Below are positions 2,941 to 59,469 of a stretch of 64,000 nt of DNA, piece after piece. The notes beneath the pieces were generated by a model, which worked only from the letters and a program-made list of their open reading frames with translations, did not search any database and was not told the origin of the DNA. The DNA lies in the NCBI GenBank assembly GCA_021904315.1, contig CM038921.1, forward strand, positions 9,330,146-9,394,145. The letters run 5' to 3'. The stretch is from Sphagnum magellanicum. Taxonomy: Eukaryota; Streptophyta; Sphagnopsida; Sphagnales; Sphagnaceae. How positions within the stretch are numbered: the stretch's first letter is position 1; every line of letters begins with the position of its first letter. The position numbers were made by a program, and so were the translations under genes.

Positions 2941-5900
2941 TCATGGTTGCTTTGGGGGTGAATCAAGCCTTGTGCTTGAGTTGCAAAATGGCATAACAGG
3001 AGGCAATGCAGCCTCCCGTCCCCAACTTGTGGACAGAAAAGGTGACAATGGATGTGGAGGAGATAACAGTGGGAGCAACTGTTGAGAACCAAAGTGATGA
3101 TGCAACTGGCTCATATTAGGAGGGTATATTGGGCATACCAGCCAGGGAGCTCCAAATGGATAAGGCAAACAAGGGACCCCACTCATACCTCCATACAGGG
3201 AATCTCCATTGGCTTGAGAGGTGGAGCTTGGTGATGAAATCGGGATTTGTTCCCTTAGAATCGTGCCTGGAGGAGGAAATATTTCTGGCACTTGCAGTTG
3301 AGGAACACCTCCCATAGGGTCCACAACAGCCAATGGAATAGGGAACAACGGTGGGTAGTGAGCTGGAAACTGGATTGCTGCTGGAGTTGATGAAAGACAA
3401 GGCTTTTTAGGCTTCTTACTTCCTGCTGATGATTGAAAAACCCGTTTTTGGATGCCAGGTCCTGGTTTGGGTCTTGTAAAACTGAACTGTGAAAGTTTTA
3501 TACCTTTTGAAACCATGTCTGGTCGACCATCTAAGAACCTGCATGCAACCAGTGAATCAATCACTCCAAGATACATGTCAGAGAGAATGCTAAAGTGCTC
3601 CCTGAAATATACATATCATACATGACACATGACTTGTTCATTAGGAGCAACAGTGTCTGCACAAACATAGCTTGTATGTGTAATGCAAGTGCTTGTTTGC
3701 CAACACAAAAATGTACACTTTTGAGTGCAAAAGCACAGCATAGGATGTAAGCGGAAAGAAAATACTGAAGTTGCTGATTTACAGAATGCTTCTTGCAATA
3801 TTTACATACTTACTGACCTCTGGACATCAGCCATAGAGCGCAGTGTTTGGCCACAGGGACTCTTGTAATAGCTGCCCACACCAAGCACATAAACCAAGGA
3901 TCATACATCAGTGGCAAAGACATATCAATGGAAGCTGCAAGCTAGCACTGGCTATTCTTACAATCTGGCCAGGTGATTTGGTCAAAAAGCAGGAAAAATC
4001 TTGAGAAAGATATGCAATGAGGGACAAAGATTTAGCACTTACACATCAGCAAAATTTCTGGATAGCTCCCCTCTGAGGACAACTTTGCGGTTAAATCCTG
4101 GAGGGGGCTTTGGAATGTTGTGCTTATCAACAGCCCACAAAATGGATGGCTCATCTTCAGAAATATCGGATGGATCCCTGCATGAAGCACCTTCTCTCCA
4201 AGCTTTCCCTTCCTCACAAACCCATGGATGCTGAAGGATTCTCTCCCCAATAGCTTCATACTGCTCCTTTGTGGGTATAATTCTCCACTTCCCACACAAA
4301 TTGCATTGAACTGTGAAAGTACCAATCGTAGTAGCAGACCATCTGCACCAGCTTAATTGAGCAGAACATTTAGAAAGCTGATTGTGGTAAACAGTGAAGA
4401 ATAAAAGTGTCTTTGGATGACCTATTCCTTGAATGAAGAAACGAAGGAAGTCCCACAAGAATACACATATGACATAAAATTGGTGAAATTGTGTACAGAA
4501 AGGACATGAGTTGAATCTTCTACAAACCAGTGTGGATCTCTAAGCCTTTGAAACTCTGGGACTTGTTGAATTGATCCCATCCAACACCTTCATCCTCTCA
4601 TATGAAGGCAAATACATACAAAGCACATGTGGTAAGCTTATATGATGGATTTCAGATTGAGCTGCTCAAGGCAGTCCTTCAGAATCAGAGGAAACTGAAC
4701 ATTTGACTTAGTCTTCACCTGGGAGTCTCTGGAACTGGGTCTGCTGACAGAACAATACTAGTACCCTTCCCTTGGTCTTCATCAGCCAGAGCTGTCAATG
4801 GACAATGTGATGGTGTGACAGCCAGACCTCTTAGAGAAAACATTTCACCACCTTCTATTCGAACATCAGGAACTTCCTGGGGAATGGCAAAAGGTGCAAC
4901 TGCTCCATTCCTCCCTATTTGGAGTGTTGTGGAGAGTAACTTGTCTGCAGAGGACTCATGCAGGATTTCCACTTCATCATCATCTTCATCATCCGTCAGA
5001 TATATAACCACTTGGGCATTGGTACCTACAGAGTTTAACTCAGAATGTTACAAAAGTTTGCAAAGCAATTAACCTCCCAGAACTTGACAGCAAATCAGTT
5101 CTAACAAGGACATTGTTCAGTGTACCTAATGACACTCCTCACTGTGAGCCAAAGCCATGTATCAAGATGAAATATCTGAAAGAAAAGATATTTTCAGACT
5201 CAGATACACACCATGAGTGAACTAGGTTCATCCTTCATAATCATGAAAGTTCTGCAGAATCAGCAAGAAAAGGATCAAACATGATGACCAATATTGGAAT
5301 TCAGGAGAATCCTGCAAAGTGAATTGTGTTAAGCAACAACAACATGCTCAGTGAGGGCATAGTGATCTTGTTTCTTGAGACAGAAACAAGATCACCCAGT
5401 TTAGGAGCATTGCTCTTCACAGGGGCAGATAATCACATTTTTTATTAGAGGGATAGAGAAGTACCTGACCCTCGTATATTTGTGTCTGCTACAGAGGGAA
5501 TGAATCCTTTGGTCCTTGGAAGAACTGAACCTTTGGTCTCAGTAACGGTAGGCCCTGGAACATCAGCCTCAACAACATCTGCCTCAGCACCATATTGCTC
5601 CAGAATCCTGTCCTTGGGAAACACCACTGCCATAACATTGCTATCCAGGTCATTGACTTTGGCCTCCAATGGACTAACCTCTGGCACATTGGATTTGTTA
5701 TCCAGGTCATTGACTTTGGCCTCCAATAGACTAAACTCTGGCACATTGGATTTGCTATCCAGGTCATAGATTTTGACCTCCAACAGACTAACCTCTGACA
5801 CCTTGGATTTTGCAGCACTTGCCTCCAGAACATCATTCTGCTGTTCAGCTTTGTTTTCAGGGATACTGGCCTCTGGAACATAGATGACCTCCTCTGGTGA

Positions 5901-5977
5901 CTTTGCCTTTGGCACGTCCTCTTGCAACTCAGCTCTAGTCACCTCCTCATGAGCCTCAGCCTTTGGCACCAGCATGT
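2941..5977 (-). CDS. CW-type zinc finger and methyl-CpG-binding domain (MBD) protein, multi-exon
   Basis: Five coding exons are supported by splice phase: about 5977-5465, 5025-4719, 4342-4043, 3871-3814 (or 3818) and 3601/3597-2941, ending in TGA. Starting at the ATG at 5975 they give about 610 residues. The third exon encodes a CW finger (TVQCNLCGKWRIIPT, then two further Cys around WREGASC) and runs into an MBD (PPPGFNRKVVLRGE...NFADV) completed by the next exon (YYKSPCGQTLRSMADVQR). This order matches plant MBD1/2/4-class proteins, nuclear factors thought to bind DNA at methylated or related CpG sites; the CW module usually reads histone H3 K4 methylation. The N-terminal exon is acidic with a 19-residue repeat. 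The second exon has an acidic run (LTDDEDDDEVEI). The C terminus is rich in Pro, Ser and Leu. The exon 4 donor is ambiguous: strong GTAAGT after 3814, or weaker GTCAGT after 3818; both keep frame with matching acceptors. The true start may lie in a further 5' exon. Domain assignment is firm; the N-terminal model is less so. Confidence 0.88.
5641..5811 (-). repeat. Three 57-bp in-frame tandem repeats in the CW-MBD gene
   Basis: Three copies start at 5641, 5698 and 5755 with an exact 57-bp period. On the minus strand they encode 19-residue repeats of the type SLLEAKVNDLDNKSNVPE. Because 57 is a multiple of three, copy-number changes would keep the frame. The repeats lie in the N-terminal exon, well before the CW and MBD domains. 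Confidence 0.85.
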
Positions 5978-5979
5978 CT

Positions 5980-6990
5980 AGATTGCATTTAGTCAGAGTT
6001 CATATATTTCAGCAGCTGCAGACTCCCCTGACTGCAGAGAATTTCATGCAAACCAACCTTTGTAAGAGCTGGAATGGTGGCATTGTACAGTAGATGTTGC
6101 ATCTTATATCCATGTAGTTTTCCTTGGCATATTTCACCAATGACAATCTCGTCACCAAAACACAGGCAGATTTCATGGCTCCTAAACTTAAACCCTAAAA
6201 AACTACTAGACTTTAGAATAGCAAACAATGCTGCTAGATTGCATTTAATCAGAGCTCATATATTTTGGTTGCAAGACTCTGCTGACTGCAGAACATTATT
6301 TCATACAATCCAACATCTGTGAGAACTGCACATATGCCATTGTACAGTAGATGTTGGCATCTAGCCATGTAGTTTTTCATTAGCAATTTCACCCATCACA
6401 ATCTCATCACCAAAAAGCCAAGCAGACTTCATGGCTCCTAAACTCAAACCCTAAAACTAACTAGACTTTAGAAAAGCAAACAATGCTGCTGGATTGCATT
6501 TAGTCAGAGCTCATACATTTTGGTCACTACACCGAGTTGACTGCAAAGCATTATTTCATGCAAACCAACATTTGTGAGAACTGCAATACCATTGTGCAGT
6601 AGATATTGGCATTCTAGCCATGCAGTTTTTCCCTTCACAATTTTTACCAATCACAATCTCATCACCAAAAAGGCAAGCAGATTTCATGGCTCCTAAACTC
6701 AAACCCTAAAACTAACTAGACTTTAGAACAGCAAACAATGCTGCTAGATTGCATCTAGTCAGAACTCATATATTAAAGGTCACTACACTCCACTGACTAC
6801 AGAGGATTTTATACAGACCAACATTTGTGAGAGCTGCAATGCCATTGTACAGTAGATGTTGGCATCTAGCCATGTAGCTTTTTCCTTAGCAATTTTCACC
6901 AATCACAATCTCATCGCCAAAAGAGGCAAGCAGATTTCATGGCTACTAAACTCAAACCCTAAGACTAATTAAACTTCAGAATTGTGAGCA
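5980..6990. repeat. Four tandem units of about 255 bp beside the first coding exon
   Basis: Units begin with GATTGCATTTAGTCAGAG-like sequence near 5981, 6237, 6493 and 6747. They share later blocks such as CAATGCTGCTAGATTGCAT and TTCATGGCTCCTAAACT. Copies differ by scattered substitutions and small indels. The array sits in what is probably the intron just upstream of the exon ending at 5977, and the first unit abuts that exon's presumed acceptor, so each unit carries a related copy of the acceptor-proximal sequence. Confidence 0.8.
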
Positions 6991-8230
6991 ATGCTGCTCA
7001 AACTTACTTGCAGGGCATGTCCCCCACCCGCCTCTTCCAAAGACTAAAACAAGGTGATGTAGAAGATAAGAACAAATCACAGAAAAATGTTATAAATGTA
7101 GATTTACCTTGCAGTATAAGGCCGGCCTTACAATCAGTATGGCAAGCAAGACATGGCAGCAATTCTCACCATAGCTCTAAGGTGTAGACAAACATATGTC
7201 TAGATTGCACAGCGGCCTACATTATTATTATTCTTCTGTTACACAACTGCCTGCAAATGTCAGACGGAAACCGATATTCAGACGAAGTACTATTTTTCTT
7301 TCGACAGTGGAAGCAATTCTCAAAAGCCTCTCTCTCCCCACCAGATTCAAAACATATTTTCGCGGATGAAGATTATATCAGCAGGTTCTATAAAAAGGAA
7401 CCCCTGGATGATAAGACTAGAATGAACAAAGGTTTTCCCCGAAATCTCAGGTCCGACACAAGGTTATAAAGAAAGCGAGAGTCTCGCAGGAAATCCTACC
7501 TTGCTGCTGCTAATAATCCAGCCAATTCGGACACAAAACCCGCAGGAATCCAAATTGACGGACCAACACAGCAACAAAAAAAAAGGACTGACTTACGGCA
7601 GCAAGTACTAAGGAAATACAAGGCAAGATTAATAAGAAAAGAATCTCATCTCCAATAGTAATAATACATACATACATACATCCATACATACCTGATGAGC
7701 AAGATGGAAAGACAAGGAAGTAATAAGAGCCGATCTCGCGTTCCTGATGCTGCCAAATTAAAAGGGAAATTATGCTCCACAAACGACAAAACCGAGCCAG
7801 AAAAAAAAAACACACACAACAATAAGAGCGACCGATTGGCCGTTCATGCGCCTGTCCCCCCCCCCCCCCCTCCTCCGACTCAACCGCTTGCAAAGAGGCA
7901 CTAACTGCTTACAAAACAGCAACTGCCTCTTAAAAATTCTTATGAGATTTGCCGCTCATCCGCATACGCCCTTGTTCTTTCACGAGGCAGAGAGAGAGAG
8001 AGAGAGAAAAATCGTCGCCCTCTCTCTCGCTCGCTCGCGGAGATCGTCGTGCACGCGGAGATGGTCGAAGTGCGCTCCTGCGCGCGGCCGCTGTGTCAGA
8101 AAAGCTTCGTCTCATTTGTGATTGGACGATTTGCTGAAAAAAGAGGCGAAGTACCCTCACGGAGATAGGGGAAAGAAAAGAAAGGGAGAGAAGAAAAGGG
8201 GCCCCCAAAAAAAAAAAAAAAAAAAAAAAC
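6990..8230 (-). promoter_or_regulatory. Likely 5' UTR exons and promoter of the CW-MBD gene
   Basis: The sequence becomes GC-richer near 8020-8100 and contains simple tracts: a CATA microsatellite near 7668-7690, a 15-base C run at 7856-7870, a GA run at 7989-8006 and a poly-A at about 8206-8229. Read on the minus strand there are several donor-like sites, including CATCAG|GTATGT (exon end 7692), CTGCC|GTAAGT near 7595 and CTGCAA|GTAAGT near 7005. This suggests alternatively spliced leader exons. No start codon in this part can be tied confidently to the downstream frame. It is inferred to be a promoter from position and composition only. Confidence 0.4.
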
Positions 8231-14085: not shown

Positions 14086-16270
14086 ATGTAATTTAGTTTA
14101 CCATAACTTTTATTGACCTACTTTAACACAATTTAACTTACTTTAATTTAATTTAGTTTAATTTAGCATAAATTACATAGTTTAGTTTAATTTAACCTAA
14201 TGTGGCCCAATTTAACATAATTTAATATAATTTATCTTAATTTAAATATCTCAATTTTAACCTAGCAACTTAGTTTAGCTTGGTTTAACCAATTTTAACT
14301 AGTTTCCAAAAAAAAACCAAATTAACCAAATTGAAGCAAATTTAACTAAAACTAAATTTAATTTAGCCATGTTTTACCATATTTTGCCAAATATATTCAA
14401 GTTTAAACCTAAGTAACCATGTTAACCAAATTTAGCCAAGTTTAACATCAATATCCTATTTTAGCCTAATTTATTTAAATTTTGACAAGTTTAGCCAAGT
14501 TTAATTTAAAAATAATCATGTTTAATCAAATATAGCCTCAATACCTAATTTAACGTAATATTCCCAAGTTTTTTTTATTTTAGTTAATTTAAAATTACAT
14601 AACCATGTTTACCCAAATTTAGCCTCAATACCCTAATTTAATGTAATTTTTCCAAGTTTTGCCAATTTTAGTTAATTTAAAACTACGTAACCATGTTTAC
14701 CCAAATTTAGCCTCAATATCTTAATTTAGGCTAATTTATTTAAGTTTTTCCAAGTCTAACCAAATTTAATCTAAATAGCCATGTTTAATCATGTTTAGCC
14801 ACAATACTTTAGTTTAACTTAATTCATCCAAATTTTGCCAAGTCTAATTAAGTTTAACTTAAATAGCGACGTTTAACCAAATTTTTGCCAAGTTTTGCCT
14901 CAATACCCTAATTTAATTTAGGTCAGTTTTGCCAAACCTAACCATGTTTTGCCAAGTTTTGGCTCAATATTGTAATTTAACATAATTAAAATTTTGCTAA
15001 GATTTGCCAAGATTAACTAAGTTTAACATAAATAACCATATTTAACCATGTTTAACCAAATTTTGTTAAGTTTTGCCAAGTTTAACATAAATAACCATGT
15101 TTAACCATGTTTAACCAAATTTTGTTAAATTTTGCCAAGTTTAACATAAATAACCATGTTTAACCAAATTTTGCAAAGTTTAACCAAATTTAACCTAAAT
15201 AGCCATGTTTTGTCAAGTTTTGCCAAGTTTAATTTGAATAGCCATGTTTAGCCAAATTTTGCCAAGTTTAACCAAGTTTAACCTAAATAACCATGTTTTG
15301 CCATGTTTTGCCAAGTTTAGCCAAGTTTAATCTAAATAATCATGTTTTGCCAAGTTTAACCAAATTTAACCTAAATAGCCAAGTTTTGATAAGTTAACCC
15401 AAATAACAATGTTTAGCCATGTTTTGCTATGTTTAGTCAAATTTAACCTAAATAGCCATGTTTTGACAAGTTTTGCCAAGTTTAACTTAAATAGCCAAGT
15501 TTTGCCATGTATAGCCAAATTTAACCTAAATAGCCATGTTTAATCAAATTTTTGCTAAGTTTAGCCGAATTTAACGTAAATAGCCATGATTAACCAAATT
15601 TAACATAGATAACGAACTTTTGCCGAGTTTTGCCAATTTAAACCAAATTTAAACCTAAATAGCCATATTTTGCCATGTTTTGCCAAGTTATGTCAAGATC
15701 TAAATAGCCAAATTTTGTCAAATTTTGCCAAGTTTAACCCAAATAAGCAAGCTTTGCCAAGCTTTGCTAAGTTTTGCCTCAATATCTTAGTTTAGCCTAC
15801 TTTATTTAAGTTTTCTTAAATTTTGCCAAGTTTAACCAAGTTTAACTTAAATAGTCATGTTTAGCCAAGTTTTGTTAAGTTTAATCTAAATAGCCATGTT
15901 TTGCAAAGTTTATCTTCAATATTCTAATTTAGTTTAAATTTATCCAAGTTTATTTTCAATATTCTAATTTAACTTAAATTTATCCAAGTTTATCTTCAAT
16001 ATTCTAATTTAGCTTAAATTTATTCAAGTTTATTTTCAATATTCTAATTTAGCTGAAATTTATCCAAATTTAGCCTAAACAATTGTGTTTAGCTTAATTT
16101 AATTAAGTTTAGCCTACTATACTCTAATATAAGTCTATGTTAGTTTATGGTAAATATGCCTACATTTAGGTTAAGAATGCTTAAGTTAGTATAGGTTAAC
16201 CTATGTTAGCAAAGGCTAGACCTAAATTAACTTAGGTCAACCTGGGGTGAGTTAGGTTAAGTTGGGTTTA
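14086..16270. repeat. 2.2 kb degenerate array of roughly 10-bp units (TTTAACCAAG / TTTTGCCAAG / AAATAGCCATG)
   Basis: Nearly the whole interval is built from units such as TTTAACCAAG, TTTTGCCAAG, TTTAACCTAA and AAATAGCCATG, spaced about 10-11 bases apart. They are organised into looser higher-order groups of about 30 bases. One strand is markedly poor in G relative to C. Towards the 3' end the units drift into TTTATCTTCAATATTCTAATT repeats (15900-16070) and then GTTAGGTTAAG-type sequence. There is no open frame of note. Confidence 0.85.
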
Positions 16271-18467: not shown

Positions 18468-18760
18468 TGTCATGCCCGTACATGGCCTCATACATGATGG
18501 CTAGTTACGGGCATGCCCATGTGCGTTTTTCGGGTTAACATACGGTCTTAGGCGACTATACGTTATTCGATACTTAGGGTTTTAGTTGTTTGGCAATAGT
18601 ATAAAAGGCTAAGCCTTTTTTTTTCTCCCTTTAATTTTTCTAGAATTCCTTTGTCAAGAGAGTTCCTCCATAATAAGCTAAGATTTTTAAATGCTCATGG
18701 TGGCCATTGCACGGCCACCGTTTACATACATTTCATTTCCTTCTTTCTTTGCAACTCAAT
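18468..18760 (+). repeat. 5' LTR (aligned part), with TATA box
   Basis: It begins TGTCATGCCCGTACATGG and aligns with 29359-29650 up to CTTTGYAACTCAAT. By eye there are about 30 substitutions over 293 bases, of which only about three are transversions. A TATAAAA box lies at 18600-18606, followed by a T/C-rich stretch. A 10-bp inverted repeat (CATGCCCGTA at 18471, TACGGGCATG at 18506) lies at the U3 start. The LTR may extend to a GTTACA near 18922, which would make it about as long as the 3' copy, but that part does not match the 3' end. No standard initiator-tRNA primer-binding site is recognisable. Confidence 0.75.
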
Positions 18761-19139
18761 TCTAGAAAAACTTCACTTTTTGTGCTTCATGTTGAAAGTC
18801 ACAGATTTCTTTTGCTTGTAAGTTCTTGAGTTATTGTTGTTGTTACTACTGTTGCCGGAAGGTGTTGGTGCTGTTGCAACCCGAGGGAGCTTGCGTTAAT
18901 ACTGGAGGGAGCTTGGGTGTTACATTCTTACAACCAACAAAAGTCGGAACACTAGACAACAGGTTTTAAAACTTCTCTCTTTCTCCCATTCTTTTTCTCT
19001 CGAAGTTTTCGAATAAAAAAAACAAAACAAAATGCTACAACGTAACGTTGGCCAGGGTTGTAGCGCGCTGCCGACCTCGCCGCAACATTGCGTTGCTAGG
19101 AACTGTAATGCAGCGCCGCCACTTGCCATTGCAGCAACA

Positions 19140-19610
19140 ATGGTTGAGCTCTGCCCGTTCGACGTTCGTCGAACTTTCGTCGAACTTCCGTTGGACTTTT
19201 GTCAGACGTTCGTTCGACATTTGTTAGACTGTTGTCGGACTATCGTCGAACTTTTGTCAGACTTTCGTCAAACTTCCGTCTGATGTTCATCGGACTTCTA
19301 TTCGACTCCTGTCCAACGTCTGTCCGACGTCCATTGGACTTCCATCCGATGTCCGTCAGACTTTCATCGAACTTTCGTCTGACTTCCGTCCGATGTCCAA
19401 TTGACATCTGACCGACGACTGACCGATATTTGTCGAACTTCCATCTAACTTTCGTTGGACGTCAGTCTTGTGTCCTTCGTCTTGTGCCCTGCACTCTACC
19501 ATCCTGCCACCTTAACGTCCTTCACCCTGCTGTCCTGCACTTTGTCGTCTTGTCGTTTGATGTCCTACGCCCTACTATGCTACGCTCTACCATCCTGCCG
19601 TTTGACGCAC
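19140..19610. repeat. Leader minisatellite, 11-12 bp GTCGGACTTCC-like units
   Basis: From 19155 to 19460 the sequence is a degenerate repeat of TTCGTCGAACT / TTCCGTCGGACT units. It grades into CGTCCTGCGCCCT-like units to 19610. The same two kinds of unit resume at about 20605-20800, after the GC-rich insertion. The array lies in the leader between the 5' LTR and gag, and the long open frames through it are repeat-driven. Confidence 0.75.
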
Positions 19611-20604
19611 CCCCAACTCCTCAAGGGACTCAAATGTGAGCCCAAGTAGAAAGCAGCGGAATAAGGAGGAGTCGGGGCACGCTCCCTAGCTCACAACCCT
19701 TTGAGGGGTAGAGGGGCGGGTTGGAGCTCCGGGATGGGACTAGGAAGAGTTGACAAGCTTTAGTCACTCACACGGGCCTGCACACAACCCACACAAAGTG
19801 GTTAGTGCAAAGTTAGAGCACACTTGGTGCTAGGACGAGCCACGGGCAACACGGACACACAAGACTCACCATGGCCCGGACTTGGGGGGGAAGCCACCAC
19901 CTTCCCCCTTATAGTATACTCTGTAGCTCTCCACGGAGGCTACATCCAAATGGCTATTTTTCCCGGGACTCCCAAGTGGGAGTCCCGAAATCGCGCCAAA
20001 TGGGACTCCTGGGACTTTGGAGCCCCATAACTTTGCGAGCAGACCTCAGATCGCGATGAGGTCTGAAGCAAAGTTGTAGGTCTCGTCGAGACCTTTTCCA
20101 ATGGTATGTCGCACGTTCTCTGCAGCCAAGTATTTCGGGTCGATTCCCGACTTTTAGTCGTCGGGAGTCAAAACTGGCAGACTCCCGGGAATTCGACTCC
20201 CGACCCTTCTTTTGGCCATAACTTGTGTTTCAGATGTCCAAATGAGCAATGCGAGCCCATTTTAGATATCTACGCTTCATGAGCTTTCCAATGATATAAA
20301 GAACGCCACAATCCATTGAGGTTTGACCCCTGCAATCGCTCTCTGAAGTTTTGGGAGTCCACCGGGACTCCATCTCCCAAAGTGGGAGTTTGCCTTGGGA
20401 GTGTGAGGGTTCACTCCCTCACACTTTCTAACACTTTCTCACACTCCCTAGCACTTTCTTGCACTCCCGGGAGTATGTGATGTGACTCCCGGGCTTCCTT
20501 TCGCCTTGACTCCCGGGCTTCCTCTTGGCTTAACTCCCGGGCTTCCTCTTTGGCCCGCACCCTTGTAATTCCCTTTGCCTTGGTCGTGAGCCCAAAGCTA
20601 GGGT
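19611..20604 (+). mobile_element. GC-rich nested insertion, copy A
   Basis: This block interrupts the leader minisatellite. It is far richer in G and C than its surroundings and full of CGGGACTCCC/GGGAGTC palindromes. Its 19640-20400 part matches the reverse complement of 23330-24045 in order: the CACGCTCCC block, the TAGGACGAG block, ACTCACCATGGCCCGGACT, CCTTCCCCCTTATAGTA, GGCTACATCCAAATGG, GGTCTCGTCGAGAC and TGACTCCCGACTTTTAG-type segments. It has no coding domain I recognise and is probably a non-autonomous element or solo LTR. Ends and target duplications are not resolved. Confidence 0.65.
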
Positions 20605-21016
20605 TGCGACACCGTTGGACATCCTGCGCCTTGTTGTCTTGCGTTCTATCATCCTACGTTGTGCTGTCATGTCGCCTTGACGTCTTGCGCCCTATTTTTT
20701 TTATCGTCCTACCTTTTCATCCGACGTCTGTTTGACTTTTGTCCAACCTTCGTCTAACCTTCGTCCAACCTTCATTGGACATTCATTGGATTTCTATACG
20801 ACGTTTGTTTATCATGGGTCATTCCCAACAACGCACTGTATTTTTCAAACTGTACATTGTGTTAAAATTTTGTAGTTAGTGTTGTGTGCTAGCACAAAAT
20901 TTTGGGGCATGGGACAACACCGTGTCCTCGAATGATGAGAGCACTATCGCTCAGCCAAAGCCCAGGTATCAGCTACGAAGTAATTCACAATCCTTTGAGC
21001 CAATTTCTTTAAGCTC
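20604..21016 (+). other. Retrotransposon leader, second part of minisatellite and pre-gag region
   Basis: CGTCCTGCGCC- and CCAACCTTCGTC-type units continue to about 20800. They are followed by unique sequence with AAAATTTTGTAG and its near reverse complement CACAAAATTTTGG around 20860-20910, which could form a stem. The gag frame follows. I found no convincing primer-binding site. Confidence 0.4.
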
Positions 21017-23419
21017 ATGATCTTCACGACGATACCATCAAGTGTCTACAGCACCACCGTCATCCAGTACAACTCATACCAGGAATTCAGGTTCAGGTTA
21101 TACTACATGAACGATACATCAGAATCCATTTGGAGGGGTTTATCAATGGGGTACACATGTTGCGGCACCTACTTTCACACCATCACCGTATATTCCGTTG
21201 CAAGCTGTGACCTCAATACCCATATACACCATGGTGGTCAACAGTTCCTTTGGCAAGGTACTATTTCTTTGAGGGAGTTCAAGGCAACTTTCTCAACTGT
21301 GGTTTGTGAATTGGAGCTCAAATATGGTGTTAATTACACCGAAGCGGTTGCATTCAATCAATTGGCCCGTTATGTGCACTATGAGGCATTGGATGTTTAC
21401 GAGCAACATTCTGCAAGGATTTTGGTCGTCACCTAAATTTCCAATCCAACTTACGCCATAGCCATAGCCACCGCTTCTCAAGCAGCATTACAAGCTACAA
21501 TTGCACATCATGGGACTATGCCTAATAATCCAGACCCGGTACTTACCTCAGTAAACCTTTCTCCTCAACAACTCATTGTTGCTACCGCAAACATTCCTCC
21601 CACCACTGATGTGCCCGCTTTTGCTGATCCAGTGGCGGAATTCTTTCGAATTTTTGAGCTGGAATTTCCAATCAAAAGTTCTGAAAAAATTCTGCAGCTC
21701 GCCACCTTCTTTTGGTAGAAGGATGAAACCCTCAAAATGTTCTACAGGAGGCTTTTCAAACTCAAAGAGGATACCCAAAGCATCACAGACCTGGAAGCTG
21801 CCCATCGGTATGTTCGTTCGTTAGAAAGTACTCCAACACTCCACGCGTAGGTTTTGCAACGAGTCTTTGCAAAATTTGGAGACTCGTACACTTTGCTGGA
21901 TGTGTACAACATTTTCGAAAAGCTAGAACTGGTTCATGCACATTATGAGGCCATTACTATGAGGCCTCCATCACGTTCAAGGCTTCAACCTACACTTGCT
22001 CTGCTAACTAAATCATCACATTCTTCTTTAAGGACTAAAGCGATGCACTCAGCTACACCCATCCTACCTTCTTGCAACTACTATGGCAATCATGCCCACA
22101 AAGCTAGTGAGTGCAACATTCCTTCCAAGGATCTCTTTTGTGATTATTGTGGGAAAGAGGGACATTAGGAATATGTCTGTTTTGCCAAGTTCCCAGAGCG
22201 GAAGAAACTCTAATTACAACGGCAAAATCTACTAGCATCTTCTGTTGTCCCTCAACCAAAAGCCAAGGCACTTCAACCTTCCACTCAGGCTTTACCCACC
22301 AAGGGTAATTCCAACAAGAATGCTAAGAAGAAGGAACACAATGTTAACAAGAGGGAGGTGCTTCAAGCCCATGCAATTCAAGTTCAGACTTTACAAAATG
22401 AACTCGAATCATTGAGGGCTCAACTTGCTAATCTAAAAGGCAAGTCCTCCCAACCAGCTAGTCATGCTCAACCTGTACAAGGTTCAGGATCACGAGAGGG
22501 ACCTCCTAGGTCGTTCTATGGCCTTCCACAGGATGCCATGGTTGGGGAATATGTTCTTTCCACTCCACACAATTCTAATCTCACACCAGAATTTGCTACT
22601 TCTTTTTGCCCTTCCTATGTCGCGACACAAGAAGCTAGTGTGGCACCCAGAGTTTCTGCCACTAGGCAGGTAATTCAAACTCATGGACTCGCATTTGGTT
22701 CAAGTCCTATTACCAGGGCTAGAGGAGCTCGAGTAGTCATGCCACAATCTTTTCGTCCTCTCAACATGGAAGAAGAACGCACCTTGTTGGCGAAGGGGGA
22801 GGAGACTATTACACCACAAGCTGTTAGGGCATCAAATTCTCGTGTCCCAAGAGTACATGTACATCATGAAAACACACAATTTTCCACTGATCAACTTATG
22901 GAATGCCAACTTCAAATGCATGAAGTGGCGCAAAAGCTTGTGAGTACACCATTGTTTAGTTTTCAAGATTTGAAGTTAAGCACTAAGGACATAATTGCAA
23001 TCTTAGAGGATACCTTGAACACTACATCAAGTCCTCTACTAATCCCTGATCCACATGCTACAGAGGTCCCATCCAACACCTTGGAGAGACATTCGATGGG
23101 CTCACGTGTTGTAGATGGTGTTCATAATTTGGTCACTAGTTCTAGCATGGCTAAACTAGTGGGCTTTCCTACCTCTGATTCTACATTCACATATCAGAAG
23201 GGAGTTCAGAACACCTCATTTATGGATTTGTTACTCAGCAAAGGTGTTGTGGATAGCCATTGTCGTAACCCCACTTTGGCCAAGTGTGGGGGTGAAGCCC
23301 AACACTTGGAAAAGTTGGAGGTTGGGAGTCTCCCGGGACTCCCGAATGTTCAGAGCTCGACAGCAAGGGGGAAAACACCTCGCATTGGGGTGTTCTTAGT
23401 GTCATGGGAAAGGTCTTGA
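21017..23419 (+). pseudogene. gag: capsid-like region, two zinc knuckles, coiled coil
   Basis: One reading frame runs through the interval with in-frame stops at 21434, 21716, 21848, 22166 and 22211. The middle part has the look of a Ty3 capsid C-terminal region (FYRRLFKLKEDTQSITDLEA). Around 22070-22170 two retroviral-type zinc knuckles follow: CNYYGNHAHKASEC, with its second Cys replaced by Tyr, and CDYCGKEGH, with the last Cys six codons on. From 22358 a Gln/Leu-rich heptad-like stretch (QVQTLQNELESLRAQLANLK) suggests a coiled coil. A Ser/Thr/Pro-rich tail follows. The frame enters the nested GC-rich insertion at about 23330, so the last residues before 23419 are not native. Gag forms the particle that packages element RNA. 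The segment before 21430 matches nothing I know. Confidence 0.75.
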
Positions 23420-24047
23420 AACGTAAATATCGAAAATGCCCTCGCATTGGCAATTCGGACATCTACAGCCCAAGTTATGGGCAAAAGAAGGGCCGAGAGT
23501 CAAACTGGCAGTTTGACTCCCGACCACTAAAAGTCGGGAATCGACCTCTTCCCGACGTCCGATTTGAATGTGCGACATGGCGTTGAAAAGATCTCGACGA
23601 GGGCTACAACTTTGGTTTAGACCTCGTCGCGATCCAACTCTGAAGTCGGGAGTTGTGGCGGTTCAAAGTTCCGGGAGTCCTGTCGAGACAATTTCGGGAC
23701 TCCATTTCGGGAGTCCTGGGAGTTTGTGCCATTCGGATGTAGCCTCCGCGACCAACCGCAGAGAATACTATATGGGGGAAGGTGGTGGCTTCCCCCGAGT
23801 CCGGGCCGTGGTGAGTCTTGTGTGTCCAAGTGCCCGTGGCAAGTCCCAACACCAAAGGGTGTCCCGAATGCTAAACTAACCCGATTTGGTTGGTTTTTGG
23901 ATGCAGATTCACACGAACTAATCTAGTCCCTCGTCCTAGTCTAATCCCGAGGCTCCCAACTCGACCCTCTACCACTTTCTAGAGTTGGAAGCCGGGAGCG
24001 TGCTACCAAGTTCAACTTTCCACAACTTGACTTTGTGAAACCCTCAA
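23325..24047 (-). mobile_element. GC-rich nested insertion, copy B (inverted relative to copy A)
   Basis: It is the reverse complement of much of copy A (19640-20400) and has the same CTCCCGGGACTCCCG palindromes, GTCTCGACGAG-like and CCCGAGTCCGGGCC segments. It separates the gag frame from the protease frame and causes a change of reading frame across the junction. The two copies differ noticeably, so they are not recent duplicates of one another. Confidence 0.65.
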
Positions 24048-24887
24048 GTGGGTTCCACCCCCGTGACTTGGGAGCGCATCAGCCATTCTTTCCACAAAGT
24101 CTTTCACTCATTTCCGAAGGTGGTGCCTAGTGAGAAAACTTCCATCGCCATTGGAGTTACCATTGTCGATAATACTGGGTCAACAATCCAAATGGGAGGA
24201 CATACACCTAAAGTGGTACTTCTTGACACAGGTGCCCAACCAGTGATTCTTGGAGTTCAATTCGCCAAGAAGATGGGCATGCTTGACTCCAAACTACGAA
24301 AACCTATGTGGTAGATTCACACCATTAGTAGGAGCGTAGAGGAGGTACTTAGGGAAAGTTCGGACTTGATTGCACTTAAGTTCAATGAAGGTACAGATCA
24401 AGAGCTTTGTTTATAGGTCAGATGTTTAGTCACCAATGCCACCAGTTATGATGTGCTCATTGGGCAAGAGGCCCTGTTTCCACTAGGTTTCATAATTAAC
24501 AACTGGTTCGAACATGCGTATTACCGAGTGGATTGGGAGACTGATGGCCACCACCTGGAATACATACCCCTTGATTTACATGGGAACCATAGTCCTATGG
24601 CTCACCATTGTATGCTCAAGGGAGCACACACCATTTCCTACATTCAACAAACTAGCCACGAATGGATAGAGGGAGATGAAGAGGAGATAGCTTACGTTCA
24701 AGTTATTGAAAGCTTGAGGGTGGTTCCTACTGACATTCAACATGGACCAGAGGTTTTACAGAGGTTCAAAGTAGCCCAGAAGCCCTTGGTCAAAGCTTTG
24801 TCTAGTTTTGAGAACATGGAGAGCCATGGCGAACCGATTAAGCCATTACTTCGTCAACTAATCACCTAGACACCACCTAAGGAAAGG
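24048..24887 (+). pseudogene. Retropepsin-like aspartic protease and linker
   Basis: The frame reads VVLLDTGAQPVILGVQFAKK, containing the D-T-G active-site triad of retroviral aspartic proteases with the usual hydrophobic residues in front. A later LIGQEALFPLGF segment resembles the conserved C-terminal ILG-type loop. Stops at 24312, 24414 and 24867 interrupt it. In Ty3 elements this enzyme cleaves the Gag-Pol polyprotein. A long linker of about 130 residues, rich in His and acidic residues, leads without a frame change into the methyltransferase domain, so both were made as one polyprotein. Confidence 0.75.
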
Positions 24888-25918
24888 ATTACATTACTAG
24901 AGCTCTTTGGTGGTATTAGTACAAGTCTCGAAGCCCTATTATAGTCAAGGATGGTGGTTCGGAGGTATTTTTACGTAGACATTGATCCTATTGCAAGGCA
25001 AGTGGCGGCATCAAGAATGAGGGAGTTCACAACAAGATTTCCACAACAGTTTGCAACCACCGCATGGAAGGCTAGTTTCACATTTTTGCCCTCTGACATA
25101 CAATTAATTCAGAGGAAGCATATGGAATTATTTGGCCCCGTCGACCTCATCATTTCAGGTTGGGAGTGTCAAGGATTTTCAGCGGCTAGATTTGGAGAAG
25201 GCTTGAGTGACACAAGATTTAGTCTTTTCACGGACATGATACGATTGATCACCTGGGCTCAATCCATTTCTCCTACACTTGGTTATGTAATTGAGAACAC
25301 CCCATTTCAGCTTGATCAGAGGGAGAAAGTCCAGGAGCACTACACATTGGTCAAGCATTACCTTGGAGAGCCGCTCTTACTAGATGCGGCACAATGTGGT
25401 TCTTATGCGCACTGGTTGCGCAACTAGTGGACCAACCTGGACCACTTTCAATTCTGCAGCTAGCTCTGAAATACACTACCAGAGATCCGAACCTGCAAGT
25501 TTCTCACATATTGGATGATCAAAGTTCTTGCCAACCAGTTACAAGGCAAGAGAAACCTCCTTGGATTCTTGCAAACACAATAGGAAAACCAAGAGGTGTT
25601 TGGCCCACCTTTGTCTCCTTCCCAGGAGCACATGCCTTTCAGGGAGATGGGCCAGGCCTGGTGTATCATCATGCTTCAGCCACTTGGGATGAACCAAGCC
25701 CAGAAGAAAGAGAAAGGGCTATGGGGTTCCAAACTGGCACTACTAGTCACACTAAGGTGACTAAATTAGAGCGTAACGCTCTACTGGGGAGAGGCATGGA
25801 CCTGAACTCCCTTACATGGTTGTTGGTAACTTGTGTACTCTTTCAAATGTACACAATACTAACATTGATTCAACCAACTTGCAATTTTGGTGATGCGACC
25901 ACATGGCACCCCGACTAA
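24888..25918 (+). pseudogene. C5 cytosine DNA methyltransferase domain inside the pol frame
   Basis: The motifs run in the canonical order. Motif I is ITLLELFGGISTSLEAL (24888 on). A VDIDP segment binds the cofactor ribose. Motif IV is VDLIISGWECQGFS with the catalytic Cys. Motif VI is YVIENTPF, and motif VIII lies near SYAHWLRN. A target-recognition-like region follows, then the motif IX/X zone EERERAMGF and ERNALLGRGMDLNSL. The full size, about 320 residues, fits a stand-alone DNMT catalytic domain, closer in order to DNMT3-type than to the permuted DRM type. It would transfer a methyl group from S-adenosylmethionine to cytosine C5. Stops at 24942, 25425 and 25916 and a frame change between about 25428 and 25460 kill this copy. 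The residue before the catalytic Cys is Glu rather than the usual Pro. It lies between protease and reverse transcriptase, with no introns visible, as expected for a polyprotein module. Confidence 0.85.
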
Positions 25919-26266
25919 GTACACTTGCCTATCTTCAACACTCTACATTTCACTCTTAGTGTTGGGGGGGAAGATGTACCATGTAATTTGACTCAAGTTG
26001 TGCCTAATACACTTGGAGGTACATCGGCTTCTGGAGAAACAATTACAACCTTTTATGAATCTGCGCAGTTGGATAGTGGAGAACCCAATACACCAGGTTC
26101 TTCAAACACACTTTCCAACTCCATTCCATGTGTTTCCAACTACCCTTTCGTTATGGGGAACCAACTCACCAAGAAGGAAAAAGACCAGGTCACAAATTTG
26201 CTAATTAAGTATGAGAATGTGTTCGCATTTTCAATGAAAGACTTAGGTAGGTGTAAGACCATGTAA
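25919..26266 (+). pseudogene. Linker between methyltransferase and reverse transcriptase
   Basis: The same frame as RT continues here, with a TAA at 26264. It has no domain until the sequence NQLTKKEKDQVTNLLIKYEN...VFAFSMKDLG, which is the conserved lead-in to Ty3-type reverse transcriptases. A run of seven G followed by GAAGATG at about 25964-25975 resembles a polypurine tract inside the coding region. Confidence 0.6.
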
Positions 26267-27550
26267 TTTTCTATAGACCTTATAGATGAGACACTCGTCT
26301 ATCGGAGGAGGCATAGGTTGAGCAAGCATGAATGGGAACTGGTAGATGAAAGATGCAAAGAGCTCCATGAGGCTGGTTTCATTCAGCCATCAAATTCTGA
26401 TTTCATAGCCGCTATAGTAATGCTAGCAAAGAAAGATTCAATTGGATTATGGACTGAGAAAAAGATGTGCGGGGATTATAGGCCTTTGAACCTAGTTACA
26501 CCTCAGGATAGGTACCCCATGCCCATCCCTGAAGAATTGTTTGATAACATTAGAGATTCAAACATCTTCACAATTGTGGATTTGAAGCAAGGCTTCAACC
26601 AGATTGTGCTCGCTGCGAAGGATCGCAAGAAAATAACATTCCATGGAAGCAACAAGTTATGGGAATGGCTTGTGATGCCTTCTGGACTAAAGAATGCACC
26701 TGTCTTCTTTCAACGAGTCATGGACCAGGTTCTCAAAGGGGCAGATTTCTTGAAGTGCTACATAGATGACGTCCTAGTGCATAACAAGGGACTCCTGCAA
26801 CGGTTGGCTCATCTTGAAGAGTTATTCAAGAGGTTCCACGAAATCAATATGAAGATCCATCCTAAAAAGTGTGAATTTGTTGTCACCTCAATAATCTACC
26901 TTGGACATAGAATTTTGCCAAATGGTATTATGGCTCATTAGGCCAAAGTAGTAGCCATTTTGGAGATGCCCAATCCTACTGATATTCACACGTTGAAGAG
27001 CCTCATCGGAGTATGTAATTACTACAGAATTTATGTCCAAGATTTTAGTACTATTGCTCATCCTTTCTATGCATTGTTAAAGAAGGATGTTGCTTGGACA
27101 TGGAGTGATGAGACTCAGGAAGCTTTCAACACACTCAAGGAAAAACTTTCAAAGTTCCCCATTCTAAAAAGACCTGATTTCAACAAGGTCTTCATTCTAC
27201 ACACTGACTGGAGTGCTCTTGGTATTGGAGCTATTTTTGGCCAACTTGATGAGGAAGGTAAGGAATATGTTATCGCCTATGCATCTCGAAGCAACAACAA
27301 GGCTAAGAGTAACTATTCTTCATACGAGGGGGAGTGCCTTGCTGTTATATGGGCTGTCATACATTTCAGGCCCTATCTTTATGGCACCAATTTCACTTTG
27401 TATTCCAACCACCAGCCTATCAAGTGGTTGATGACCAACAATAAGCTTACTGGTAAGTTAGCTCGTTGGGCACTTATACTTCAAGAGTATGAGTTCAAGG
27501 TTATTCACCAACCTCGTATTACACATCAGAATGCGGATACCATGTCGTGA
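26267..27550 (+). pseudogene. Reverse transcriptase and RNase H
   Basis: The RT fingers/palm motifs are clear: KKMCGDYRPLN, FTIVDLKQGFNQI, MPSGLKNAPVFFQRVMD and the catalytic YIDD at 26759-26770, followed by HPKKCEFVV and YLGH. After a stop at 26939 the same frame continues through the connection domain (SLIGVCNYYRIYVQDFSTIA) into RNase H: HTDWSALGIGA, YASRSNNKAKSNYSSYEGECLAVIWA and LYSNHQPIKWL. In the last motif the expected catalytic Asp reads Asn, a single G-to-A change. The frame ends at a TGA at 27548 in the NADTMS-stop-RP segment where family members have Arg. It converts element RNA into DNA. Confidence 0.93.
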
Positions 27551-28738
27551 AGACCCCTCATTACCTCTGAAGATTTTTTAGAAACCAGGCAAGATTTTGA
27601 CCAGATTCTAGTAGTACATGTATTTGAGGCATCTAGTTATCTTACATTACTGCAATGTAACTTGGTTGAACATCCCATTTTGGATATATGGGAGGATTTG
27701 GACACTCTAAGGTTTCTTCAACATGGGGAATACCCTCCCCAAGTTACATCAAGTCAATGGGATCGCATACAACAGCGGTCCAAACACTATTCATGGAAGG
27801 ACAATCACCTCGTCCAATGCTTACCACAAGGCGATAGAGTGGTTCCACCACCACATGAACGACCTGGTCTTATTCAAAAGGTACATTCGGAGCTTGGACA
27901 CTTTGGAGTTAAGCGTACTTATAGCCTTCTCGCTCCTCATTACCATTGGAGAGGTATGTATGTTGAAGTCCGAGACATCATTGCTAGGTGTGAACAATGT
28001 GATAGAGTGAGAACTTCTTTCTCCTCTCGACAGCTCACGCTTTCTCCACTCCCTATTCAAGGCATGTTCTATCGTTGGTCATGTGATTTAGTTGGAGAAT
28101 TACCACAAACCTCTAGGGGTAATGTTTACATCATGATTATGATTGAGCATTTTTCAAAGTGGGTTGAGCTTGTTGCACTACCGAACAAGTCATCACAGAG
28201 CACCAGCTATGTTTTTTTACAACAGGTTCTAAGTAGGTTTGGGGCTTGTGCTAAATGCTTTATTGATCAAGGGTCAGAATTTAGGGGAGAATTCCAAGAC
28301 CTATTTGACCATGCTTTCATTGACCATCGTCGGACTTCAAGAGATCATCCCCAAGCTGATGGCCTTACAGAAAGGATGGTTCAAACGTGCAAGAAGGGAC
28401 TTTGGAAGATTTGCCTCACTAAGAACAAAGAGGATTGGGACCTGGCCCTCCCATACATTGCCATGGGTTACATGATGTCCAAACACGCCTTTTTATCTCA
28501 TTCTCTCCTTACTTTTTACTTTTTGGGAGACATCCCATTCCACCCTCTTCCATTGCTGCTCAAATGGACTAGGTTGTGGACTTGGACTCCCCAGCCACTT
28601 GGGTTAAGGTCATTGCAGAAAGGGCTGTTCTATTCAAGAGGGTTATGCCCATGGCCATGGAGAATTTGTCCATTGCACAACATCGAGACACCTTACGGTA
28701 TGCACACACACGAGGTGGCAGTTACAAACCTAAGGTGA
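27551..28738 (+). pseudogene. Integrase
   Basis: An H2C2 zinc-binding module is present (HSELGHFGVKRT ... RCEQC). The catalytic core follows with the first Asp in WSCDLVGELP, the second in FIDQGSEFRGEF and the Glu in DGLTERMVQ, i.e. a D,D,E triad. The reading frame shifts by one near a T run at about 28505-28525, after which the coding sequence continues in another frame (LFGRHPIPPSS, then a TAG at 28570). The enzyme inserts element DNA into host DNA. The core is followed by a basic linker and a GPY/F-like module in the next feature. Confidence 0.9.
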
Positions 28739-29130
28739 GACAATTTGATGTTGGTGATTTTGTATATCTCTAATGGCAACCAAATGATACTCTAGACACT
28801 TCTTCCGGTCGCACTATTTTAAGGATTAAGGCGATCAGGCCTTTAGGTGTGTTGGAGCTGCAAGGAGTTAATGGACGCACAATTCAAGATCATTCCAAAA
28901 ATTATGCGCCTTGCCACCTGCCGAACTTGGATCCTACCATCATCACGTCGACTTGGATTCCTCCACTTGATTATCCATGTCAGGTATGTCAAAGGACGGA
29001 TGATGCTGATCAGATGCTATTTTGTGACAACTGTAATGGTGGATACCATCTTTTCTGCCTCAAGCCGGAGCTCACTCAAGTTCTCGCCGACAATTGGTAC
29101 TGTTCATCATGTTCTCCTACAACACTTTGA
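28739..29130 (+). pseudogene. Integrase C-terminal GPY/F-like module fused to a PHD finger
   Basis: After VRQFDVGDFVYL and a stop at 28771, the frame reads RPLGVLELQGVNGRTIQDHS, which occupies the place of the GPY/F module of Ty3-type integrases. It then continues straight into a complete C4HC3 PHD finger at 28978-29115: CQVC, CDNC, the HLFC pair and the final CSSC. The conserved Trp lies two residues before the last Cys pair (NWYCSSC). The open frame ends with TGA at 29128. PHD fingers usually bind the histone H3 tail, so this module could steer integration or tether the complex to particular chromatin. All eight metal ligands are intact in this otherwise broken copy. Chromoviruses instead carry a chromodomain at this position. 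Confidence 0.9.
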
Positions 29131-29179
29131 TTCTTACTCAGACCATGCCACACTTTTCTTGGCTAAGGTCTGGGGGGGG

Positions 29180-29358
29180 ATACATGAAAATTTCATCTCA
29201 GCCTCCCTTGTGCATTGTATATATATATATGTGCATGCATCTCTGTTTGGTTGATTAATTTATACCTTTAACTGGCTTTAGTCTTTTTGTTTAGTAGAAT
29301 TTACTATGGATTTACACCCTTACAACACTATACGTCACAACACACATGTCACGACAGC
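29180..29358 (+). repeat. Pre-LTR segment repeated after the 3' LTR (copy 1)
   Basis: This 179-bp segment starts ATACATGAAAATTTCATCT directly after a G-run (CTGGGGGGGG, 29170-29179) that resembles a polypurine tract. It recurs at 29651-29826 with moderate divergence, including the TATATATATGTGC and TTTACACCCTTA blocks. It ends GTCACGACAGC immediately before the 3' LTR start. Confidence 0.8.
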
Positions 29359-29826
29359 TGTCATGCCCGTACATGGCTTCATACATGATGGCCAGTTATG
29401 GGCATGCCCATGTGCACTTTTAGGGTTAATGTACGGTCTTAGGCGACTATAGGTTATTAGGTACTTAGGGTTTCAGTTGTTTGGTAGTAGTATAAAAAGC
29501 CAAGTCTTTTCTTTCTCCCTTTAGTTTTTCTAGAATTCCTTTGTCAGGAGAGTTCCTCCATAATAAGCTAGGATTTCTAGATGCTCACGACGGCCATTGC
29601 ACGGCCACCATCTACATACATTTCATTTCCTTCTTTCTTTGTAACTCAATATACATGAAAATTTCATCTTAGCCTCCCTTGTGCATTGTATATATATATG
29701 TGCGTGCATCTCTTTTTGGTTGATTAGTTTATACCTTTAACTAATTTTAGTCTTTTTATTTAGTAAAATTTACTACGAATTTACACCCTTATAACACCGT
29801 ACGTCATGACACTACACGTCATGACA
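29359..29826 (+). repeat. 3' LTR: LTR-homologous half plus second copy of the pre-LTR segment
   Basis: 29359-29650 matches the 5' LTR, including a TATAAAA box at 29491-29497. It then switches at ACTCAAT to 29651-29826, a copy of 29180-29358, and ends CATGACA, the exact reverse complement of the LTR start TGTCATG. The 5' LTR is not followed by this segment. The 3' end is therefore either rearranged or the product of template switching between element copies. Confidence 0.7.
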
Positions 29827-48578: not shown

Positions 48579-50160
48579 CAACATTGTCTTCTCAAATGGT
48601 CATATTTGTGCAGATCCTGATCTCTCTCACTATTTCATAGTACTTTTGAATTTATACAGCTTTAGATGATACTACCATATTTCTGTACATCCCAATCTCT
48701 CTCTCTCTCTCTCTATTTCATAGAACTGTTTGACTATACAGCTTTAGACTATAAGTAATTGGGGATTTTCTCTTCATCTGTTATCTTAGTTCCTAACTTT
48801 CTTGAGCTCTTATATCATCCAATGGACATACATTATCTCAAAAATTAAAAGAATATAATAGTTGAAAGGAAGTTTAGTTTTTTAAGGTGTCTGTCTGATG
48901 TTCAACTTCCATGAATTCATACATTGCCCCACTTCCTTGGATTTCATCTATTGTACACGTTTGCTAAGGTTAATCAATTTTCCATCTTTCCCATATTCAT
49001 TCATGTTCAACTTCCTCATGGGGGCCAACTTCACCAAATTCCTTCATTCATTATCTTTACTCCCTTAGATCCATCCATAGTCCAACTTTCCTTTCATCCA
49101 TTTTCCAACTTTCCTAAATTCACATGTTGTCTGACCTTCACCATAATTCATCCATTTTCCACCCTCCTCAGATATTGTTCAACTTTTGCAAAATTCATCT
49201 ATTTTTTCCAACTTTCTTGTACTGTAGAACATTCAAATTCATCCATGTTTTTGTTTAAAAAGAAAAAATTAAAAACTTTTTATGCAGGCTGGCATCCAAG
49301 GAAATTAAAACTGGTAGGAAAAGTGCTATCTATCAGATTTGAAACCACATTCCTTCCTTTAATTCAATTAGTCATATATGGTCACATACATACATGCCCT
49401 CTTATTGAAATACATTCAATTTTATGAATAAAATTTAAATATAGAAATTTCAATTTCAATTTAAATTCAATACATTGTATTTTTTGACAATTTAAAAATA
49501 ATAAAAATTGGGCACCATTATTGGACATGCCCCAACTTGATATACTACTATTTTGCATCAGAGAATGTGCTGTATTTAATTCATTGCACCTGTTTAGTGC
49601 CCATCTACCTAACTGAATGATTGGAATTTAAAGCCCATTCTGAGTGGAATCTATGCTCATCTACCTAACATTCCACCCAGGAAAACAACAGTTCCCCCCA
49701 GCTGTTGAAACATCAGTTAGGTGGGTAGGCTATCCTGGCTCCTCCCTGATTGCCACAAAATAGAATAAAATAAATAATTTAAAAAAATACAGATCAGTCC
49801 TAGTTTGGAATTTTTTTTCCGTTTGTGCCAAAAAGAATTAATTCATTAATTAATTTTTAAAAATCAGCAACATAAAGCGCAGTCCAATTCTGAACTTTTA
49901 GGAGCTTTTTTCTATGGAAAAAAAAAGTGAGAAAGAAGAAAGCCAAGAGAAACAGGGCAGGAGTGCGGCGGAGGTCGGCAGTTTTTGTGTTGTGCTCAAA
50001 GACAAATATGGAAAACAAGGGCCCCCCCAAGACAGGATGGGCAGGGGAGGGGAACTCATTCCCTGCCCATGGCACACACAATACCAAGTAGGAAGTAGCA
50101 TGTTACAAAATTCTCAACTTGCATAATTGAATGCGACTATGGCCACAAATTGTTGTTTGT
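48579..50160. other. Spacer after NSE3 with a degenerate CATCCATTTTCCAACTTTCC array
   Basis: 48895-49250 consists of loose 30-40 bp repeats around TTCATCCATTTTCCAACTTTCCTAAA, which open a long frame of no biological meaning. A CT dinucleotide run lies at about 48697-48715. A C/G-rich patch at 49950-50090 has open frames on both strands but no domain. Confidence 0.45.
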
Positions 50161-59452: not shown

Positions 59453-59469
59453 GATCATTACAGAATGTA

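Follow-up and report, generated by a model that had tools for sequence, protein, structure and literature searches.

A decayed Ty3/gypsy-type retrotransposon with a DNMT3-type methyltransferase domain, a PHD finger and split terminal repeats in a bryophyte genome

The window analysed here (the whole 64-kb stretch of DNA) contains at 18468-29826 a Ty3/gypsy-type element in which a C5 DNA methyltransferase (DNMT) lies between the protease (PR) and the reverse transcriptase (RT), and a PHD finger follows the integrase (INT). Taken together, the evidence is in all probability best explained by a dead copy of a gag-PR-DNMT3-RT-RNase H-INT-PHD family of Ty3/gypsy type, whose DNMT would methylate the element's own DNA, whose PHD finger would serve in targeting, and whose LTR, of the composition B-GC-A, would be cut internally. 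DNA methylation normally silences transposons, yet this one has retained a methyltransferase under selection, and some of its copies are recent.

The window element, all of whose coding and repeat features lie on the plus strand, has the hallmarks of Ty3/gypsy elements: the order RT-RNase H-integrase and a DDE integrase. By Pfam it has an rve integrase in the place of a tyrosine recombinase, and at its C terminus a PHD finger (PF00628) and no chromodomain. The left end is formed by terminal repeat A1 (18468..18760), which begins TGTCATG, contains TATAAAAGG at 18600 and is 89.8% identical to A2 (29359..29650). The 5′ leader region (18836..20758) includes a GC-rich block at 19824-20371 and did not align to the leaders of the three copies of the family compared (L011, L012 and L022, from the set of retrieved copies described below). 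It is followed by a decayed gag region (20999..22168) with zinc-knuckle-like motifs, recognised by eye; tblastn with P0123 gave a weak match at 21332-22210 (E 0.001), and the three frame pieces searched against Pfam gave no match. Between gag and protease there is a nested insert of about 0.8 kb (23265..24080), which is not present at the equivalent site in L011, L012 or L022. The core of this insert is 89% identical to positions 8637-9178 of L010, where an insert is also found, and was not found in the other 19 retrieved copies, whilst the block at 19824-20371 is an inverted sequence 75% identical to 23325-23855 within the core; the GC-rich insert is seen twice in the window and once among the 20 retrieved copies. 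The observed/expected CG ratio is about 0.9 around both GC-rich blocks, as against 0.33 for the window.

Downstream of the insert, the aspartic protease and the linker after it (24081..24869) contain stops; the match to PF13650 (E 0.0016) is below the cut-off, and a tblastn match of P0122 starts at 24108. The DNMT, of DNMT3 type (24888..25870), is followed by the reverse transcriptase (26267..26941; PF00078, E 9e-26), RNase H (26942..27550; PF17917, E 9e-37), an integrase with H2C2 and rve parts (27551..28738; PF17921, E 7e-16, and PF00665, E 2.5e-10) and the C-terminal PHD finger (28978..29113; PF00628, E 1e-12), in which the C4HC3 ligands are present by eye and over which P0003 aligns in tblastn at 83% (28498-29124). 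A polypurine-like tract read from the sequence, CTGGGGGGGG (29170..29179), abuts terminal repeat B1 (29180..29356), which is 88.2% identical to B2; a GC dinucleotide at the B1/A2 boundary (29357..29358) is the centre of the palindrome GACAGCTGTC, and A2 is followed by B2 (29651..29826), the right end, which finishes CATGACA.

Within the window DNMT, motifs I (LLELFGGI), IV (SGWECQGFS), VI (IENT), VIII (AHWLRN) and IX-X (PEERERAMGF ... LLGRGMDLN) are found in this order. The upstream half of the domain matches PF00145 at 24945-25427 (E 1.1e-7, 32.1 bits, cut-off 22), and P0004, a related JGI protein, aligns in tblastn at 91% over 24951-25439 and at 89% over 25439-27412. An earlier note on this DNA had reported these motifs in canonical order with a reverse transcriptase after them, and both observations hold; its statement that the DNMT is in frame with the protease does not, as stops interrupt the sequence at 24942 and 25425 and the two halves of the domain lie in different frames, with the shift near 25439. 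Of the span that it had given to the domain (24888..25918), a C5 domain does occupy the greater part, but the domain ends near 25870 and the final 50 or so bases are thus linker. The internal stops and the frame change mark the window copy as dead, a decay that the earlier note did not mention, just as it did not mention the PHD finger or the A-coding-B-A-B ends. It also differs at two motifs: in motif IV, Glu replaces Pro (WECQ, not PCQ; 25161-25172), and in motif VIII, which is AHRLRN in P0004, one Arg has become Trp, a residue seen in none of the relatives with that column. Six of the seven premature stops in the blocks aligned to P0004 or P0003 are a single C-to-T or G-to-A step from the codon of the relative, and the differences within the repeat pairs of the window comprise 44 transitions and 4 transversions (48 and 12 in six younger copies); these stops and the excess of transitions would fit decay at methylated cytosines. 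Reading self-methylation from CG depletion was rejected, since the observed/expected CG ratio of the element is 0.45, compared with 0.33 for the window, and the element is therefore not more depleted than its surroundings.

Further copies of the family have been found across the genome (438,994,042 bases in 31 contigs), in which P0004, a DNMT-RT-RNase H protein, has at least 56 matches that are 85-98% identical, a lower bound with 55 of 5283 candidates scored; at least nine of the matches listed are free of stops, two of these being adjacent pieces of one locus. Twenty copies were retrieved, namely rows 1-16 and 18-20, in approximate order of match quality, plus row 25, picked as stop-free, so that the set is not random. 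The order PR-DNMT-RT-RNase H-integrase-PHD, then B, is the same in all 20, and seven are stop-free from the DNMT through RNase H, the longest open frame having 2379 codons. A chance insertion or gene fusion confined to the window copy, for which the stops and frame shift of that copy might speak, is refuted by the PR-DNMT-RT arrangement common to the 20 retrieved copies, and has a vanishingly small probability: the DNMT was also detected by profile in 42 of 142 related proteins (defined below), in 36 of which it is placed between PR and RT, to the extent that the protein includes these neighbours (all three being visible in seven). The earlier note had named multiple copies sharing this arrangement as support, and its refuting case, that no other copy has the DNMT between PR and RT, does not apply.

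Pairwise dN/dS among the copies was 0.26 for PR (13 copies in register), 0.24 for the DNMT (19 copies, 171 pairs), 0.23 for integrase (16 copies) and, with 20 of 20 copies in register, 0.38 for the linker, 0.29 for RT and 0.30 for RNase H; for the PHD finger and tail (14 copies) it was 0.11, a ratio made less certain by an odd synonymous value of 0.21 (0.05-0.08 elsewhere). In the stop-free copies alone, pN/pS for the DNMT was 0.14 (6 copies). The ratio for the DNMT is close to those for RT and integrase, which indicates that it has been conserved no less strictly than the other enzymes, and as judged from these ratios the DNMT is under purifying selection. Some copies elsewhere in the genome are recent insertions: in L013, one of six dated copies of the form A-coding-B-A-B and the one with identical repeats, A (301/301) and B (178/178) are without differences. 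In the window, the K2P distances are 0.113 for A1/A2 and 0.115 for B1/B2, and since the two pairs are equally diverged both probably derive from one insertion.

Profile comparison and the predicted fold place the DNMT of the element in the DNMT3 branch, as a non-rearranged domain, rather than with DRM. When compared with the PDB, the DNMT profile matched DNMT3A at 3.4e-28 in three collinear stretches and DNMT3B at 7e-27, followed by DRM (2e-14), HaeIII (1e-9), a DNMT2 type (2e-8) and HhaI (1e-7). Against the DNMT3A value, a DRM origin was rejected, the DRM match covering the N part only, and an origin from a bacterial or viral enzyme is not favoured given the values for HaeIII and HhaI. The sole phage-like match to the DNMT was P0156 (E 5e-9), and there was no match in viral contigs with either P0004 or the DNMT profile, nor in the genome contigs collection with the profile. 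An AlphaFold model of P0124 (mean pLDDT 74, with most DNMT blocks near 90) was used for a fold search, in which the best 50 of 216 matches (E up to 0.001) were DNMT3 structures throughout; the TM-score by target was about 0.8 for single-domain DNMT3 entries. With animal DNMT3A and DNMT3B the domain shares the order of motifs, an AHR.R motif VIII, an LLGR-like motif X and the predicted fold, but its region between motifs VIII and IX is longer, PWWP was not seen, and the histone-reading finger is at the far end of the polyprotein. Animal DNMT3 is associated with its ADD domain, and the element pairs DNMT3 with a PHD reader in much the same way. The plant DRM is likewise a C5 methyltransferase of the DNMT3 branch but is rearranged (PMC5890265), whereas the element has motifs I to X in the usual order.

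The catalytic Cys is found in 39 of the 42 relatives having the column (it is replaced in P0077, P0091 and P0057), the Glu of motif VI in 50/50 and the Arg of motif VIII in 49/51. The proline column of motif IV is more variable, with Pro in 29, Glu in 12 and Leu in one of 42 relatives, and the change between Pro and Glu requires at least four steps on the DNMT tree (42 rows with either residue, including the window and DNMT3A); in the window lineage the motif reads ECQ, and activity may therefore be altered. That the DNMT is a structural or regulatory passenger, retained without catalysis (for example as a DNA-binding part), would agree with ECQ in 12 of 42 relatives, with the three replacements of Cys and with the Klebsormidium domain having shown no activity in yeast, a result that its authors call inconclusive (PMC5890265). 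We nevertheless consider this unlikely, as almost every relative retains the Cys, the Glu and the Arg, and the dN/dS of the DNMT is as low as that of RT and INT.

Relatives were collected as 142 distinct proteins, made up of the best 120 of 439 and 24 from a second search (P0005 and P0027 being common to both). The four nearest among the best 120 of 439 are 79-89% identical; one is an RT-RH protein from Calypogeia fissa, a liverwort, and the other three are unnamed records. DNMT bearers include named records from Marchantia polymorpha (P0053, P0066, P0139) and Klebsormidium (P0076), as well as records from Closterium (for example P0086 and P0137) and Tetraselmis (P0057, P0079, P0080; the genus being taken from the record tag Tetstr1). 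A PHD finger is present in 40 of the 142 proteins, nine of which have both PHD and DNMT. An RT-RH tree was made by a quick method from 96 rows, of which 87 belong to the family (the window among them) and 9 are gypsies selected to serve as outgroup; the remaining matches were left out. In it the family, with P0076 of K. nitens, forms one clade against the 9 other gypsies (SH-aLRT 100). DNMT bearers are spread over most of the main branches, the deepest included, and two branches (10 and 13 rows) have no DNMT in their RT-bearing proteins, some of which start downstream of its place; on our reading of this tree the family would have captured its DNMT once and long ago. A second layout, RT-RH-DNMT-INT, was found in P0131, P0132, P0133, P0135, P0136 and P0138, those proteins that start late showing the DNMT before integrase. 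In a DNMT tree made by a careful method (52 rows, rooted on one long DNMT3A row as sole outgroup) these six form one clade (100/98) that has the window lineage as its neighbour (88/82) and is nested among the first-layout proteins, from which it follows that the DNMT probably moved once within the polyprotein. Four proteins (P0062, P0133, P0135 and P0079) were observed to have an extra 200-300 C-terminal residues beyond the PHD finger or the position it would occupy; this region resembles a class I methyltransferase when read by eye, and in P0133 and P0135 it has no Pfam match at E 0.01.

The nearest described element known to us is KnitGypsy-Dnmt3 of Klebsormidium nitens, in which a non-rearranged domain of DNMT3 type lies in a Gypsy Pol, and for which the legend to Fig. 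4c equates the repeat structure with that of a DIRS (PMC5890265). The window family agrees with it in both respects, and a K. nitens protein, P0076, has the order PR-DNMT-RT and belongs to the RT-RH clade of the window. This kind of element, its DIRS-like repeats included, is thus already known, and capture of a DNMT by a Ty3/gypsy element, for which the earlier note had cited de Mendoza et al. 2018, is confirmed. The suggestion of an uncharacterised lineage is right in part: the four nearest relatives are the unnamed records and the Calypogeia fissa protein, and KnitGypsy-Dnmt3 is the nearest element with a description. Unlike KnitGypsy-Dnmt3, the window family is found in a bryophyte genome and in Marchantia records, has a PHD finger and reads ECQ in motif IV; the available description of KnitGypsy-Dnmt3 is without 4-bp duplications, A-coding-B copies or cutting at a junction, and the words PHD, moss and fern do not occur in the main text of PMC5890265. 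Other retrotransposons have been shown to bear a DNMT, namely SymbioDIRS-Dnmt3 and SymbioLINE-Dnmt of Symbiodinium (PMC5890265), and DNMT3 has been reported in LTR Copia and DIRS elements of streptophytes and dinoflagellates (PMC12344493). SymbioDIRS-Dnmt3 is similar to the window family in its A-coding-B-A-B repeats and its DNMT3 domain, but the Symbiodinium elements have a tyrosine recombinase or a LINE endonuclease where the family has a DDE integrase. In searches of the open-licence literature no title or abstract dealt with elements of this kind from Marchantia, ferns or bryophytes, with a PHD in Gypsy elements, or with split direct repeats or circle junctions, and papers citing PMC5890265 likewise showed none of these features. 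As far as these searches reach, the occurrence in a bryophyte genome and in Marchantia, the PHD finger, the RT-RH-DNMT-INT layout and the ends are new.

With regard to function, the DNMT may methylate the double-stranded DNA of the element itself, before or at integration, and the PHD finger may couple the integrase to a histone state. In this way the element would enter the genome already marked like silent host chromatin, and such a premarked arrival could reduce harm to the host or allow the element to escape recognition as foreign DNA. Chromoviruses also have a chromatin-reading domain after the integrase; in the window family this is a PHD finger instead of a chromodomain, and a DNMT is added. 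DNMT3 domains elsewhere work on chromatin, which would speak for host chromatin in trans, or RNA, as the substrate rather than the element's own DNA; we think this improbable, as the position in the pol polyprotein would favour work inside the particle.

The ends of the element are unusual for a Ty3/gypsy element in that the outer ends differ, A being on the left and B on the right, without identical repeats at both ends in the window or the retrieved copies, whilst the short target duplication and RT-RNase H-integrase are as in other members of the group. A reading as paired classical LTRs was dropped once the B repeat had been recognised. In the retrieved copies, A begins TGTCATG and stops at about the start of the leader, and B finishes CGACA or close to it; a slightly varied G-rich tract lies immediately 5′ of B1 in 20/20. 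Eleven of the 20 have the form A-coding-B, with no A-B on the right (the left end of L026 not being seen), and seven, like the window, have the form A-coding-B-GC-A-B, in which B2 follows A2 (the outer left flank of L010 not being seen); the remaining two are inverted (L020) and rearranged (L025). GC is found at the B-A junction in all eight forward junctions of the retrieved copies, and the sequence before A is other than B in all 17 forward copies with the left flank read. An exact 4-bp target duplication is present in 16 of the 17 retrieved copies with both ends readable, or 16 of 18 counting the window, a count that leaves out L010, L025 and L026; the exceptions are L028 and the window (TTCA/TTAA). 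Inspection by eye of the sequence following A in two copies revealed no TGG-type tRNA primer site. DIRS elements are not known to make a target duplication: the family resembles them in its split direct repeats but differs in its 4-bp target duplications and in having an rve integrase, not a tyrosine recombinase.

This geometry is best read as that of an element with an LTR of B-GC-A, in which A|B would be the circle junction and B-GC-A the place of the cut. Reverse transcription would give (BA)-coding-(BA), and integrase would cut the palindrome GACA^GC^TGTC within the LTR of a linear or circular product, probably circular DNA, so that a product with one LTR would yield A-coding-B and a two-LTR circle A-coding-B-A-B. 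Alternatively, all copies may insert as A-coding-B-A-B, as in DIRS, the A-coding-B form then being a secondary product of recombination between B1 and B2. These are two nearly identical repeats about 490 bases from each other, and target duplications of one kind flank both forms. We find this possible but rather doubtful. Copies with no A-B on the right make up 6/10 of those closest to P0004 and 5/10 of the others, and the form is thus not commoner in more distant copies, which in this small set is mildly against later recombination. In addition, in L020 the end of B1 and the start of A2 are joined into A1 with a 4-bp duplication (TACA), the host duplication AATT lying outside; the inversion (with L037) looks like an autointegration that used ends from the internal B-GC-A junction. 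This one rearranged copy, together with the geometry, suggests integrase-like cutting at the internal B-GC-A palindrome, and the end structure makes it testable whether an integrase of retroviral type uses a site resembling a circle junction. A broader proposal, to which we give a little less than even credence, is that the integrase ignores the LTR ends and cuts linear or circular cDNA within the LTR, at the 10-bp palindrome GACAGCTGTC, leaving integrated copies circularly permuted (A-coding-B or A-coding-B-A-B), many without terminal direct repeats, and that the family, with its own DNMT3 and PHD reader, would represent a lineage long established in green algae and bryophytes that annotation based on paired LTRs would overlook.

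Several further features were observed. L038 is another rearranged copy, in which A2 is followed at 2145-2582 by about 11 leader bases and then by an inverted piece of RT. In the 64-kb window no tRNA was found, nor any Rfam family at the gathering score. On the minus strand at 2941-5999 there are three exon-like open frames, which perhaps belong to one host gene, and one of these frames has a CW zinc finger (PF07496, zf-CW) at 4039-4539, in keeping with a eukaryotic genome. Tandem repeat arrays are located at 5978-6998, 14500-16100, 50155-50811 and 59468-60217.
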